Assembly: GCF_021631985.1 (NCBI RefSeq) | Contig: NZ_CP070225.1 | Coordinates: 7,936,001-8,000,000 of the forward strand | Reading direction: 5' to 3' | DNA from: Sandaracinus amylolyticus | GTDB taxonomy: Bacteria > Myxococcota_A > Polyangia > Polyangiales > Sandaracinaceae | DNA: 64,000 nucleotides | Shown here: in pieces, positions 37,703 through 43,797 of the stretch | Numbering within the stretch: position 1 is the stretch's first letter | How the letters are laid out: each line of letters begins with the position of its first letter | Notes under the pieces: model-generated | What the model saw: only the letters and a program-made list of their open reading frames with translations | What the model was told of the DNA's origin: nothing | Database searches by the model: none | Translations under genes and position numbers: made by a program

Positions 37703-38293
37703 TCAGCGCCAGCGACCGCGTCCCTGCCCCGCCGGATCGGCGTAGGGCCCACCATCGCTGTCGGTGATCCCCGTGGTCCCCACGCGACCCGTGCCCCGGC
37801 CGTTGCCCGCGGGATCGGCGTAGGGCCCACCGTCGCTGTCGGTGATGCCGCTGGTCCGCCCGTACACGCCGCGGCCGTAGCCCGCGGGATCGGCGTACGC
37901 ACCGCCGTCGCTGTCGGTCAGCCCGGTGTACGCCTGACGGCGCGTTCCGCGGCCGTAACCCGCGGGATCGGCGTACGCACCACCGTCGCTGTCGGTCACG
38001 CCGGTGCGGTAGCGGCCCTGGGGGGCCTGCACGACCACCGTCGCGGGCTGCGGCGCCTGCGCGTACACGACGGGCTGCGGCGGCTGCGCGTACACGACCG
38101 GACGCCGGCGCACCACGCAGCCCGGGAGCACCGCGGCCGCCGCGCCTCCCGCGAGCACACCGATCACGCCCAGCATCGAGCGGCGCGACACCGGCGCCGG
38201 CTCTTCGGCTCCGCTCCGCTCCGAGACGATGTCGGCATCGTCGAGCGTGAGCGTCTTCTTCTCGACCCCGGGATCCGTCTTCTTGTCGGACAT
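37703..38293 (-). CDS. Tat-type lipoprotein with four Thr-Asp-Ser-Asp-Gly-Gly repeats
   Basis: 196 residues. The charged N terminus is followed by Ser-Arg-Arg-Ser-Met-Leu-Gly (twin-arginine motif), a hydrophobic stretch and a lipobox Leu-Pro-Gly-Cys near residue 59. A Pro/Gln/Val-rich spacer follows. The last 95 residues are four near-identical units, each with Thr-Asp-Ser-Asp-Gly-Gly-(Ala/Pro)-Tyr-Ala-Asp-Pro-Ala-Gly-x-Gly-Arg-Gly. The spaced Asp residues suggest calcium binding, but no known fold is recognised. Export in folded form by Tat is implied by the signal. Start ATG 38293. Divergent from the Ser/Thr kinase at 38449. Confidence 0.85.
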   Translation of the reverse strand: MSDKKTDPGVEKKTLTLDDADIVSERSGAEEPAPVSRRSMLGVIGVLAGGAAAAVLPGCVVRRRPVVYAQPPQPVVYAQAPQPATVVVQAPQGRYRTGVTDSDGGAYADPAGYGRGTRRQAYTGLTDSDGGAYADPAGYGRGVYGRTSGITDSDGGPYADPAGNGRGTGRVGTTGITDSDGGPYADPAGQGRGRWR

Positions 38294-38345
38294 GCGCGGC
38301 ACGACTCCTATGGAAAGCCTGCCCGGCTCTCTCGTTCTCGCCCGG

Positions 38346-39383: not shown

Positions 39384-40259
39384 GTGGGCGGGCGAGCAGT
39401 ACGGGGGGGCATCGCCGCAGCGGTGGTGCTCTCGGGCGCGAGCATCCTCTGGTGGGGTTGCTCGCTCGAGCGCGTGAGCTTCGCGGGCGTCTCGCGCGAT
39501 GCGAGCACGAGCGACGCGGGCGTGGGTCGCGGTGATGCGAGCCCGGTCGGCGCGTGCGTGCCGCGATGCGCGGGCGCGGTCGCGATCCGATGCGCGGGGA
39601 CGAGCACCGTCGAGGAGGACTGCGCGCCGCGCGGCGCCCGCTGCGCGATGACCGACGGCGACGCGACGTGCGTCGCGCGCACGTGCGAGCCACGGCGGAC
39701 GCGCTGCGACGGCGACGTGCTCTACACCTGCGACGCCGAGGGCGCGGCCGAGCAGCCCACGACGTGCGAGCACGGTTGCAGCGAGGGCGCGTGCACGACC
39801 GAGTCGGGCTCGTGCCTCTGGAGCTCGGAGATCGTCGACGAGGGCTCGTTCGCGATCGATCTCTGCGGGCGCACCGACGATCACCAGGTGCGCGCCGATC
39901 GGTGCGAGGGCGCGACCAGCGACGGCGAGGACGCCCACGTGCGGCTCTTCGTCTCGCAGCGACGGCGGCTGAGGCTCGATCTGCGCGACGTCGACGGCCC
40001 GGGAGGCGTGGACACGGTGCTCTCGCTCTTGCGTCGCTGCGGCGAGATGGAGAGCGAGATCGAGTGCTCGAACGACATCGCGTGCGCCGACGCCGACGAG
40101 GATCTGAAGGGCACGCCGTGCGAGTCGGGACGGCAGCCGCGACAGTCGCGCCTCGACGTCGAGCTCGACCCCGGCACGTACTACGTGCTGCTCGACAGCC
40201 AGAACCGCGGCTCGTTCGGGTGCGGTCGCGTCGAGCTGCGCGTGCGCGCGATGGACTAG
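39384..40259 (+). CDS. Cys-rich secreted lipoprotein
   Basis: 291 residues from GTG 39384. Signal segment with Trp-Trp-Gly-Cys lipobox-like end (Cys26), then an Asp/Ala/Ser spacer. The region 55-145 has about a dozen Cys residues in paired spacing (Cys-Val-Pro-Arg-Cys, Cys-Glu-Pro-Arg-Arg-Thr-Arg-Cys, Tyr-Thr-Cys-Asp), recalling short disulfide-rich repeats of myxobacterial surface proteins. The C-terminal half is strand-rich and ends in a bacterial pre-peptidase (PPC)-like pattern with Asp-Pro-Gly-Thr-Tyr-Tyr-Val-Leu-Leu-Asp. Stop overlaps the opposing gene's stop (CTAG at 40256-40259). No enzyme motif. Confidence 0.8.
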   Translation: MGGRAVRGGIAAAVVLSGASILWWGCSLERVSFAGVSRDASTSDAGVGRGDASPVGACVPRCAGAVAIRCAGTSTVEEDCAPRGARCAMTDGDATCVARTCEPRRTRCDGDVLYTCDAEGAAEQPTTCEHGCSEGACTTESGSCLWSSEIVDEGSFAIDLCGRTDDHQVRADRCEGATSDGEDAHVRLFVSQRRRLRLDLRDVDGPGGVDTVLSLLRRCGEMESEIECSNDIACADADEDLKGTPCESGRQPRQSRLDVELDPGTYYVLLDSQNRGSFGCGRVELRVRAMD

Positions 40260-42313
40260 AAGGTCTGTCCGGGGCCCCACCGGACGACGTAAGGGCGCGC
40301 CTGCACGATCACGATGCGCCCTCCGGCGAGCAGGAACTCCACGTCGACCGCGTTCACCGGCTGCGGCCAGCGGGGGCGTTCCCCTCCGACGAAATGAGCG
40401 TGGATGCGCGCGAGACGCTCGTGCAGCGCGGTGATCGCCGCATCGTCGAGCAAGAGCGCGCCCGGGCTGCGCGAGCTGCGCGCGAGGAGCTCGGTCTCGA
40501 ACGGCTGCATGTAGTGGTAGATGAGGTGCTGCTCGGGGATCTCCTCGCCCGCCGCGCCGGTCACGCTTCCGCCGAGCACCTGCGCGTTCACGAAATACGC
40601 GGGGCGCGCCTCGTAATACGGGTTCGCGGTGATCGCGACGCCGTTCGCGCTCGCGCCGTCGACGAAGGGCTGCGCGAGGATCGCCATCCCGACGCTGCGG
40701 TGATCGACGCGGTACCACTCGCGCTCTTCGTACGCGCCGAGCAGCCACACGCTGGCCCACACCTCGCGCAGCGCGTTCGCGATCTCCTGATCGCTCGCGC
40801 CCGCGCTCACCACGATGCTGCGATAGAGCCCCGCGCCGGTGAAGCCCGCGAGGTCCTCGGCGTTGGTGCTCGATCGCAGGATCCACCGCGCGTGGGGCGC
40901 GACGTGCGCGATGCGACGACGCACTTCGTGCACCAGGCGGGGCTCGACGCCCGCGCTCTGGATCATCGTGCGCACCTGCGCGAGCTGTCGCGCCCGCACC
41001 GTCGCGTCGCTGCGGAACGTCGGGTCCGCGAGCATCTGCGGCAGGCCGTGCACGATCCCGCTGTCGCCGAGGTGCTCGAGGTAGTGCGCGACCGGCACCA
41101 CGAACCCACCGGGCGTGTCGATGTTGCCGAGCGAGCAGACCTCGCCGAGCTGCGATGCCTTCGCGCCCGCGAACGCCGCGTCGGGCAGGCGCAGATCGCA
41201 CACCGCGACCAGGCGTCGCTCGCGGGGATCGAGCCGCGGAACCTGCGGCTGGGCGGGACGTCGCGCGGCCCACGCGGCCTCGGCCTGGGCCAGCGTGGCC
41301 TCGCGGATCGCGAACTCCTGCGGGCCGATCACGAGCTGCACGAGGCGCCCGTCGAGCCGCTGCACGTCGGGATGATCGAGCGCCGCGCGCAGCCCCATGT
41401 TCGGCGTGCCCCGATTCGCGCAGAGGATCGCGACGTGTCCGAGCGGCGCCTGGAGCTGCGCGCTGATCACCCCGCTCACCACGGGAATCTCGTCGGGCAG
41501 CTGCTCGAGCACGAGGATCTGATCGGGGCGCACGGTGCTGGGATCGAGCGCGCCGCGCACCACGCGCAGCGTGCCGAACGCCGGACCTTCGGTGAGCGGC
41601 TGGTAGCGCACGCCCGCGAACACCTCGTCGGCGGTCGCGATCGGCAGCTGCGCGCGCACGCTCGCGATCGATCGATCGTGCAGCGGCGACATCGGACGGA
41701 ACCGGAGCCGATCGCCGATCCACAACGCGCCGCGCAGCTGCTGGAAGAGCGTCACGATGCGATCGCCGGGGAGCGTGTCGCCGCCGATGAGCTCGAGCGT
41801 CCAGAGATCACTGTCGAGGTAGTGCACGATCGTGCCGAGCTCGAAGCGGCGCTCGGGACGGCGGTACTCGCGGACGTTGAACGTCCGGTGGTCGGCGTGT
41901 GTGGCGCCGACCGGATGGCGATCGGTCGAGAGATGATCGCGCGCGAACTCGTAATGGATGTCCCAGCGCTGCGTGTCGATGAACCAGATGGTCCGGCCCT
42001 CGGCGACGTCGACGAGGAACTTCACGACCTCGGTGCGCGCGACCGCGCTCGATGCGGGCCGCGCCGCGAGCCGGGCCCACGTCGCCGCATCGTCGATGCG
42101 GTGCGCGAACTCGAGGCGCCCCTCGGACGTGCTCTGCGCGCCGCCGCTCGACTCACCGCCCTGCGCGTCGCCGCGCAGCGCGTGGTCGTCGGGCAATGGC
42201 GCGATCGGTCCGGCGTTCCGACGCGCCGGCGCGCTCCCACACGACGCCGCGATCACCGCGACCATCGTCAGCGCCGCGAGCCGAGCCCCCGTCCTGCGCA
42301 CGTCTTCGAGCAT
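40256..42313 (-). CDS. PEP-synthase/PPDK-like lipoprotein
   Basis: 685 residues. Signal peptide with lipobox Ala-Ala-Ser-Cys (Cys25) and a spacer. An N-terminal domain of unknown type (about 65-240) is followed by a swivelling phosphohistidine-like segment (about 270-330) with Pro-Leu-Gly-His-Val-Ala-Ile and Arg-Gly-Thr-Pro-Asn-Met. The PPDK/PEP-synthase ATP-grasp domain comes last (about 385-685): Ala-Lys-Ala-Ser-Gln-Leu-Gly-Glu, Leu-Arg-Ser-Ser-Thr-Asn-Ala-Glu-Asp-Leu, and a terminal Val-Asp-Val-Glu-Phe-Leu...Gln-Ala-Arg-Pro. The domain order is reversed against classical PEP synthase and the PEP-binding barrel is missing. Such enzymes are normally cytoplasmic, needing ATP; a lipid anchor outside the inner membrane is odd. 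An 18-bp palindrome lies just upstream. Confidence 0.85.
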   Translation of the reverse strand: MLEDVRRTGARLAALTMVAVIAASCGSAPARRNAGPIAPLPDDHALRGDAQGGESSGGAQSTSEGRLEFAHRIDDAATWARLAARPASSAVARTEVVKFLVDVAEGRTIWFIDTQRWDIHYEFARDHLSTDRHPVGATHADHRTFNVREYRRPERRFELGTIVHYLDSDLWTLELIGGDTLPGDRIVTLFQQLRGALWIGDRLRFRPMSPLHDRSIASVRAQLPIATADEVFAGVRYQPLTEGPAFGTLRVVRGALDPSTVRPDQILVLEQLPDEIPVVSGVISAQLQAPLGHVAILCANRGTPNMGLRAALDHPDVQRLDGRLVQLVIGPQEFAIREATLAQAEAAWAARRPAQPQVPRLDPRERRLVAVCDLRLPDAAFAGAKASQLGEVCSLGNIDTPGGFVVPVAHYLEHLGDSGIVHGLPQMLADPTFRSDATVRARQLAQVRTMIQSAGVEPRLVHEVRRRIAHVAPHARWILRSSTNAEDLAGFTGAGLYRSIVVSAGASDQEIANALREVWASVWLLGAYEEREWYRVDHRSVGMAILAQPFVDGASANGVAITANPYYEARPAYFVNAQVLGGSVTGAAGEEIPEQHLIYHYMQPFETELLARSSRSPGALLLDDAAITALHERLARIHAHFVGGERPRWPQPVNAVDVEFLLAGGRIVIVQARPYVVRWGPGQTF

Positions 42314-42363: not shown

Positions 42364-42440
42364 TTCGCGGCGATCAGTCCGCGAACCGGCAAACGATTCA
42401 CGCGGGCGCACCTCACCGCACCCGCGCGCTCAACCGAGAC

Positions 42441-42712
42441 AGGAGTGCTCGCGGAGCAGACGGCGGACGGAAGTGCCCGCCTCGGGCACGCACGGGAGCC
42501 GGCTGCGCAGTGAGCCGATTCAACGAAAGCAGGAGTGCTCGCGGAGCAGACGGCGGACGGAAGTGCCCGCCTCGGGCACGCACGGGAGCCGGCTGCGCAG
42601 TGAGCCGATTCAACGAAAGCAGGAGTGCTCGCGGAGTAGACGGCGGACGGAAGTGCCCGCCTCGGGCACGCACGGGAGCCGGCTGCGCAGTGAGCCGATT
42701 CAACGAAGCAGG
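42441..42712. repeat. Three tandem 90-bp repeats
   Basis: Units begin AGGAGTGCTCGCGGAG at 42441, 42531 and 42621. The copies are nearly identical (one visible change, C to T at 42637); the third is cut short near 42712. Each unit can fold: TGCTC-GCG-GAGCA, GTGCCCG-CCT-CGGGCAC, and CGGCT...AGCCG. The last copy supplies the stop codon and final residues of the AlkC-like gene (stop at 42700). As 90 is a multiple of three, several frames stay open as artefacts. The remainder of the 386-bp gap 42314-42699 holds only the palindrome at 42346. Confidence 0.9.
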
Positions 42713-43797
42713 AACGCGCCGAGCGGGAAGCGGGTGCCGTTGATCTGCAGCTCGACGCGGTGCTCGCCCGGGTGGTGCTTGCGGGTGGTGCGCTCCTCGA
42801 GCGAGAGGCGGCGGGTCAGCGCGAGCGGCGTGTGCGGCTCGAGCGTCGCGCGCGTCCACTTGAACACCTTCGCGCTGGTCTGGCCGCGGGCCTTCACGTA
42901 GTGGACGACGAGATCGATCACCGCGTCGAGCGAGATCGCGCTGGTGATCGTCGCGTCGATGCGCACCTCACCGCCGCGCTTCACGCGGGCGGGTGTGATC
43001 GCGCCGTGCACCTCGCAGTCGGGGCGCTCGCTCGAGACGCCGAGCACCTCGAGCGCGCCGGGATCGCCGCGTTTGATCAGGGTGCGCAGCGCGTGGCGCA
43101 CCGTCTTGGCGCGCGACGGGACGCGCATCCACGCACCTGCGATCTCGACCGCGCGCGCCGGGTGATCCTTCGCGACGTCGTTGAGGTGGTTCGCGACCGA
43201 GCGACGCACCACCTCGGTCTCGTCGTCGACCAGCCGCGCGATCCGCGCGAGCCCGGGCTCGGGATCGTCGATCAACCAGCGCACCCGCGCCGCCCACGGC
43301 AGGCGCGGCCGCATGCCCTCGCTCACGAGGCGACGCACGTGGGGGCTCGGATCGCTCACCCACTCGTCGAGCCGCTCCAGCGTGCGCTCGCGGTGCTGCT
43401 CGAGGAACGGACGTATTGCGAATTCGCAAGAGAAGCGTTGCGTAATTGCATGCATCGCGTCGAGCGATCGCGCGGGGCGCTCGAGGCCGTGCTCGGCGAC
43501 GAACATCGTGTGCGGCAGGTAGAAGAACGGCGCCATGCCGGACACCGCGTCGACTTCTCCGACCGGACCGAGCGAGCGCTCGATCACCTCGATCGCATCC
43601 TCGAAGCGCGCGGGCAGCCCGGCGTGCATCGCGCGCATCAGGTGCCGCCCGCGATCGAGCAGCTCGAGCGCGTCGAGCCCTTCGTTCGCGCGACGTCGGA
43701 ACGCGCGCTCGTCGAACGTCGGATGCGCCGCGCGCAGCGACGCACCGAGGCGCTGCACCAGCGCCGCGTCGAAGAAGTCCTTGAGCTGCGTGGCCAT
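42700..43797 (-). CDS. AlkC-like DNA alkylation repair protein
   Basis: 365 residues. Helical HEAT-like repeats fill about 20-250, with Pro-Ser-Pro-His-Val-Arg-Arg-Leu-Val-Ser-Glu-Gly-Met-Arg-Pro-Arg-Leu-Pro-Trp and Val-Val-Arg-Arg-Ser-Val-Ala-Asn-His-Leu-Asn-Asp, the hallmark segments of the AlkC/AlkD superfamily. These glycosylases remove N3- or N7-alkylated purines. The C-terminal 100 residues are strand-rich, as in AlkC proteins with an extra Ig-like domain. The start overlaps the stop of the FAH gene (TGATG at 43795-43799). The 3' end runs into the tandem array, which provides the stop codon. Confidence 0.88.
   Translation of the reverse strand: MATQLKDFFDAALVQRLGASLRAAHPTFDERAFRRRANEGLDALELLDRGRHLMRAMHAGLPARFEDAIEVIERSLGPVGEVDAVSGMAPFFYLPHTMFVAEHGLERPARSLDAMHAITQRFSCEFAIRPFLEQHRERTLERLDEWVSDPSPHVRRLVSEGMRPRLPWAARVRWLIDDPEPGLARIARLVDDETEVVRRSVANHLNDVAKDHPARAVEIAGAWMRVPSRAKTVRHALRTLIKRGDPGALEVLGVSSERPDCEVHGAITPARVKRGGEVRIDATITSAISLDAVIDLVVHYVKARGQTSAKVFKWTRATLEPHTPLALTRRLSLEERTTRKHHPGEHRVELQINGTRFPLGAFLLR

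Follow-up and report, generated by a model that had tools for sequence, protein, structure and literature searches.

The window, a 64,000-nucleotide stretch of the Sandaracinus amylolyticus genome (contig NZ_CP070225.1, positions 7,936,001 to 8,000,000), encodes on its minus strand (40256–42313) a 685-amino-acid protein that is probably a lipid-anchored, extracytoplasmic phosphotransferase of the dikinase type, predicted from its sequence and structure models to be active. By the same evidence, a third conserved domain stands in for the PEP barrel or the rifampin-binding domain.

Domain layout of the protein

When the open reading frame is re-read in the window, its ATG lies at 42313 and its stop codon at 40258–40256 of the minus strand, on which all features described below are found. 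The N-terminus, MLEDVRRTGARLAALTMVAVIAAS followed by a cysteine, comprises a signal peptide (residues 1–24, 42242–42313), whose start, MLxDVRR, is common to the homologues L010 and L011/L013, and a lipobox, AAS-C (residues 22–25, 42239–42250), with Cys25 as the residue predicted to be lipidated. A low-complexity linker (residues 26–64, 42122–42238), which has Pro/Gly/Ala/Thr-rich counterparts in the homologues, leads to an N-domain (residues about 66–235, 41609–42118), a phosphohistidine swivel domain (residues about 236–350, 41264–41608) that contains the putative carrier His293 (codon 41435–41437), and a C-terminal ATP-grasp domain (residues 372–685, 40259–41200).

The Pfam PPDK_N profile matches residues 382–676 with an E-value of 6.5e-29 and 101.7 bits against a cut-off of 27, which, together with the conserved nucleotide residues described below, places the C-terminal domain in the PPDK_N ATP-grasp superfamily and bears out the ATP-using phosphotransferase fold proposed in an earlier note on this DNA. 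In line with that note, which had the PEP barrel as absent, neither PEP-utilizers (PF00391) nor PEP-utilizers_C (PF02896) matches the protein at E ≤ 1, whereas the PEP synthase of the same genome, used as a positive control, matches both (2.2e-28 and 1.7e-60, respectively). The protein thus shares the PPDK_N domain and the swivel phosphohistidine chemistry with PEP synthase and pyruvate phosphate dikinase (PPDK) but lacks their PEP-binding barrel and has a changed domain order. The earlier note had called this order reversed, which is correct relative to PEP synthase and PPDK but not in general, as the plant enzymes alpha-glucan, water dikinase and phosphoglucan, water dikinase (GWD/PWD) have their domains arranged in this way. 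The NCBIfam models for PEP synthase (TIGR01418, 61.8 bits against a cut-off of 739.75) and rifampin phosphotransferase (RPH; RIF_Ptrans_rph, 70.5 bits against 999) both remain below threshold.

Structure models were built on 8 sequences (mean pLDDT 72.4 and 77.0). In the AlphaFold2 model of residues 61–372, residues about 236–340 match the swivel domains of RPH, Enzyme I and PPDK (for RPH, Z 11.6, rmsd 2.7–2.8, 98–105 residues), and that of the ATP-grasp domain fits AMPPNP-bound RPH with a Z of 27.8 and an rmsd of 2.5 over 286 residues. The segment that the earlier note had described as phosphohistidine-like accordingly has a swivel fold in the model, and its His293 is invariant in all rows of a 44-row family alignment. 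This alignment consists of P0001 and 43 loci, with the copies L001, L005, L011, L013 and L030, the PEP synthase L002 and the partial L028 left out.

Relation to RPH and to small-molecule dikinases

The protein is similar to RPH in its ATP-grasp fold and residues, in a swivel domain with a carrier histidine, and in having no PEP barrel. The domains of RPH are arranged as ATP-grasp, RIF-binding and C-terminal His domain (PMC4844700), whereas the 685-amino-acid protein has the reverse order, an export signal and another third domain. The two-component phenol dikinases HpeHI, CreHI and PpsAB resemble it in their dikinase chemistry and the replacement of the PEP barrel, and HpeI matches its ATP-grasp domain, but they are made of two polypeptides and carry a GGxTSH-type motif at the carrier histidine, and an export signal goes unmentioned in the accessible text of PMC12167813.

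The N-domain is the part of the protein with no recognisable relatives in our searches: a profile search of PDB sequences gave no match at E ≤ 5, no recognised Pfam family was found in this region among 40 members, and the Foldseek and VIA-align matches of the 61–372 model fall almost exclusively on the swivel part. It is conserved, with His120 and Arg155 invariant in 44 of 44 rows within the motifs LYFxxSxRxxIHYxF and EYxxPxRRF. Because the third domain of RPH holds Arg666 and Glu667, which are needed for transfer to the acceptor (PMC4844700), we infer by analogy that the N-domain binds the acceptor. A more distant subfamily, represented by L077 (2402–5230) and L088, comprises proteins of greater length, with 961- and 1116-codon frames, in which a lipobox start and, at the position of His120, an LHDEW motif can be seen by eye.

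These comparisons bear on what the acceptor might be. The protein could be a surface dikinase of small molecules, similar to RPH or HpeHI, that phosphorylates antibiotics or phenolics at the envelope and thereby inactivates or captures them. RPH, PEP synthase and HpeI are the nearest solved relatives of its ATP-grasp domain, HpeHI is described as a scavenging small-molecule dikinase in which the PEP barrel has been replaced (PMC12167813), and the several paralogues found in some genomes (up to 8 matching stretches) would suit varied substrates. We nonetheless consider this rather unlikely, since the domain order is unlike that of RPH and the carrier motif of the family is PLSH or PLGH and not GGxTSH. 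The profile and fold searches gave no match of the N-domain to the rifampin-binding domain, which may say little, as the fold matches lie almost entirely in the swivel part.

Conservation of the catalytic residues

In the ATP-grasp domain, alignment with Listeria RPH pairs K385 with Lys22, R480 with Arg117 and S499 with Thr136. In RPH, the Lys22Ala mutation abolishes activity, Arg117Ala and Thr136Val lose rifampin transfer while retaining ATP splitting, and Glu297, the counterpart of E659, is dispensable (PMC4844700). All 44 rows have K385, R480 and the hydroxyl residue S499, and 43 have E659, Q671 and R673, the exception being a truncated row. Inspection of the catalytic residues, which the earlier note had proposed as a check, therefore finds the residues of RPH ATP chemistry retained in a domain whose model resembles that of RPH.

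Compared with its 92%-identical orthologue in a genome of the same genus (G001), the gene has a dN/dS of 0.20 overall, 0.15 in the ATP-grasp domain and 0.06 in the swivel domain, and on these ratios it is under purifying selection.

The earlier note had also allowed for a protein that acts without catalysis. This could be a nucleotide-binding or sensing lipoprotein that keeps the fold for binding external ATP or for structure and performs no phosphotransfer. The scarcity of extracellular ATP (PMC3882102) would fit such a role, but we regard it as improbable, because relatives with as little as ~30% identity (the most distant in a 40-row alignment) invariably keep both the residues for nucleotide and the carrier histidine, the latter relevant to phosphotransfer only, and because the swivel domain is the slowest-evolving part of the protein.

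Export signal and lipobox

The lipobox of the protein, VIAAS-C25, is as clear as the earlier note had described it. The survey of homologues proposed there was run with a fixed rule on 42 non-redundant, untruncated sequences, which remained from 50 loci after five (L002, L005 and the duplicates L011, L029 and L030) had been dropped and three (L016, L055 and L056) excluded because a contig or locus edge had removed their N-terminus. Rather than starting downstream of the lipobox as cytoplasmic proteins, an outcome that the note had named as one that would count against its reading, the homologues carry a lipobox by this rule in 40 of 42 cases. Of the two misses, L052 has a lipobox by eye and L031 an ordinary secretion signal. 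The 40 include two weak rows: L042, where the rule picked the wrong cysteine and a better LLLLLS-C lies upstream with a weak start only, and L035, which fits only with a start 10 residues upstream. A naive start caller combined with a similar rule found a lipobox in 23 of 29 family calls against 57 of 335 neighbouring genes, a rough control, as several of the family misses are miscalled starts and the neighbours include true lipoproteins. In all 12 long forms tested, lamin-tail domains (PF00932) lie between the lipobox and the enzyme, one of them (L095) scoring below the Pfam cut-off.

With its signal peptide and lipobox cysteine kept in homologues, the protein classes as a bacterial lipoprotein whose lipidation and location are predicted from sequence. 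Its mature start, CGSAPAR, predicts an outer membrane location by the Myxococcus xanthus rules (Lys at +2 for the inner membrane, Ala at +7 for the matrix; PMC3222651), provided that these are valid in this family. The RR at residues 6–7 of the protein, which L010 and L013 share, raised the possibility of Tat export, but twin arginines are not a recurrent feature of the homologues in the lipobox survey, and Sec is therefore assumed.

That the enzyme is instead cytoplasmic, its lipoprotein signal being a wrong start call or unused, is highly unlikely: the Shine-Dalgarno-like AGAGG lies just 3 bases ahead of the ATG and the signal peptide has a dN/dS of about 1.2 (over few sites), yet signal peptide and cysteine persist across the surveyed homologues despite diverged letters, and the long forms join lipobox, linker and lamin-tail domains in frame with the enzyme.

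Distribution of the family and genomic context

In a protein search across 282 genomes of the phylum, 81 contain matches to the family at E ≤ 1e-40, many of which extend over nearly the whole protein; at E ≤ 0.001, 31 of 56 relatives have matches, some on the ATP-grasp part only. Contigs with family loci are assigned to Sandaracinaceae, Polyangiaceae and Nannocystis MAGs, among others. The loci studied here are the best matches reported by the search tools and not all matches. Seven loci came from a scan of genome contigs, one of which (L031) lies on a contig labelled as part of an Opitutaceae MAG. Its product has a secretion signal without a lipobox and is 64% identical to the protein of the window, and because of this identity we take the contig to be probably misbinned.

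Plasmid records yielded 30 matches, none of which covers 80% of the query; among the matches listed (15), only the ATP-grasp part is aligned. PADLOC gave no match for the 685-amino-acid protein, and the sole phage-family match was phrog_26338 (0.015). No description of a lipoprotein dikinase of this kind was found in the literature, which was searched largely by titles and the openings of abstracts.

The 10.96 Mb genome encodes a true PEP synthase and a PPDK elsewhere, both scoring over their NCBIfam cut-offs, which we count in favour of the dikinase reading of the present protein. A search of the whole genome with PPDK_N gave 8 matching stretches, some of which are pieces of one gene. One PPDK_N protein of this genome (L003, G000:C1:2463805-2467713) matches prodigiosin-ligase (PigC/RedH) models over most of the length of these models, at scores below their cut-offs.

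Gene neighbourhoods were compared at 27 loci including the window, with genes called by a simple codon-position script and then clustered. Besides the family itself, the only recurrent neighbours were a protein-kinase cluster, which occurs at 10 loci without a fixed position, and two clusters found at 3 loci each, and with so few recurrent clusters no pathway can be inferred, which we count against the dikinase reading. In the window, a cysteine-rich, lipoprotein-like open reading frame with no Pfam match (39384–40259, plus strand) ends 4 bases inside the dikinase gene in a tail-to-tail arrangement, and a similar gene adjoins the G001 orthologue. A 90-bp unit repeated 3.1 times with a 98% match (42440–42713) separates the dikinase gene from the next gene upstream. 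At 37703–38302 (minus strand), a further gene encodes a predicted lipoprotein whose signal reads SRRSM...LPGC and which contains repeats of TDSDGGxYADPAGxGRG.

Relation to plant glucan water dikinases

In GWD, the phosphohistidine domain sits before PPDK_N. The 685-amino-acid protein likewise consists of an N-terminal region, a phosphohistidine domain and PPDK_N in this order, as the water-dikinase-like layout suggested by the earlier note would have it, and shares with GWD/PWD the C-terminal position of PPDK_N (PMC6805951, PMC11986951). At the level of sequence, 13 of 40 members have a match to the GWD1_pHisD profile at E ≤ 1, the best one at 0.0021, with 12.3–12.9 bits in three members against a cut-off of 27 bits. 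When 188 genomes were scanned with this profile, 14 of them had hits at E ≤ 0.01, 15 in all and each below the cut-off, and 14 control genomes had none; all 10 loci examined out of these 15 belong to the lipoprotein dikinase family. This suggests that the swivel domain is akin to the GWD phosphohistidine domain, with a profile match below the cut-off for membership.

The protein differs from GWD/PWD in being a lipoprotein of half the size that lacks a starch-binding module (neither CBM45 nor CBM20 was found by Pfam in 40 members) and the CFATC/VFVTC motif. The latter lies near the carrier histidine in GWD/PWD (PMC6805951), whereas the sequence after H293 reads VAILCANRGTPN; algal GWDs are also without this motif, according to PMC11986951. 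The comparison suggests that the protein may be GWD-like in its working, its identity as a glucan dikinase being an analogy only.

Proposed mechanism and its implications

Combining these observations, we propose that ATP bound in the C-terminal domain would pyrophosphorylate His293, that the gamma phosphate would be released as Pi, and that the swivel domain would then deliver the beta phosphate to an acceptor bound in the N-domain, with His120 perhaps serving as a base and Arg155 as a phosphate clamp. The products would be AMP, Pi and the phosphorylated acceptor, as with water dikinases. The acceptor is probably a molecule of the envelope, the matrix or the environment. Since the layout and the swivel domain are nearest to those of plant glucan water dikinases, a surface polysaccharide is our leading guess among candidates.

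ATP would have to be supplied by leakage or by lysed neighbours or prey, and this is the weakest step of the model: supernatants of Salmonella contain ~1 nM ATP when taken from stationary cultures and over 10 nM when taken early in the log phase (PMC3882102), far below the ATP Km of 8.4 µM of RPH-Lm (PMC4844700). The gap might be bridged by a higher affinity, by action at sites of short-lived high ATP, for instance in the vicinity of lysing prey, or by another role of the nucleotide.

As a compact single-chain protein with the GWD layout, the dikinase is also of interest at a time when high-resolution structures of GWD are lacking, according to PMC12892837. We would suggest, tentatively and as one possibility, that myxobacteria have a widespread family of cell-surface dikinases that draw on ATP outside the cell, perhaps set free when prey or neighbours lyse, and phosphorylate polymers or molecules of the extracellular space through an unrecognised acceptor domain. 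Such a family would be a membrane-anchored bacterial counterpart of the water dikinases that phosphorylate starch. ATP-dependent phosphotransfer outside the bacterial cytoplasm is, to our knowledge, rarely documented, and a phylum-wide family that joins the full catalytic machinery to a lipobox makes it testable whether external ATP serves as a substrate and which molecules at the surface of myxobacteria receive phosphate.
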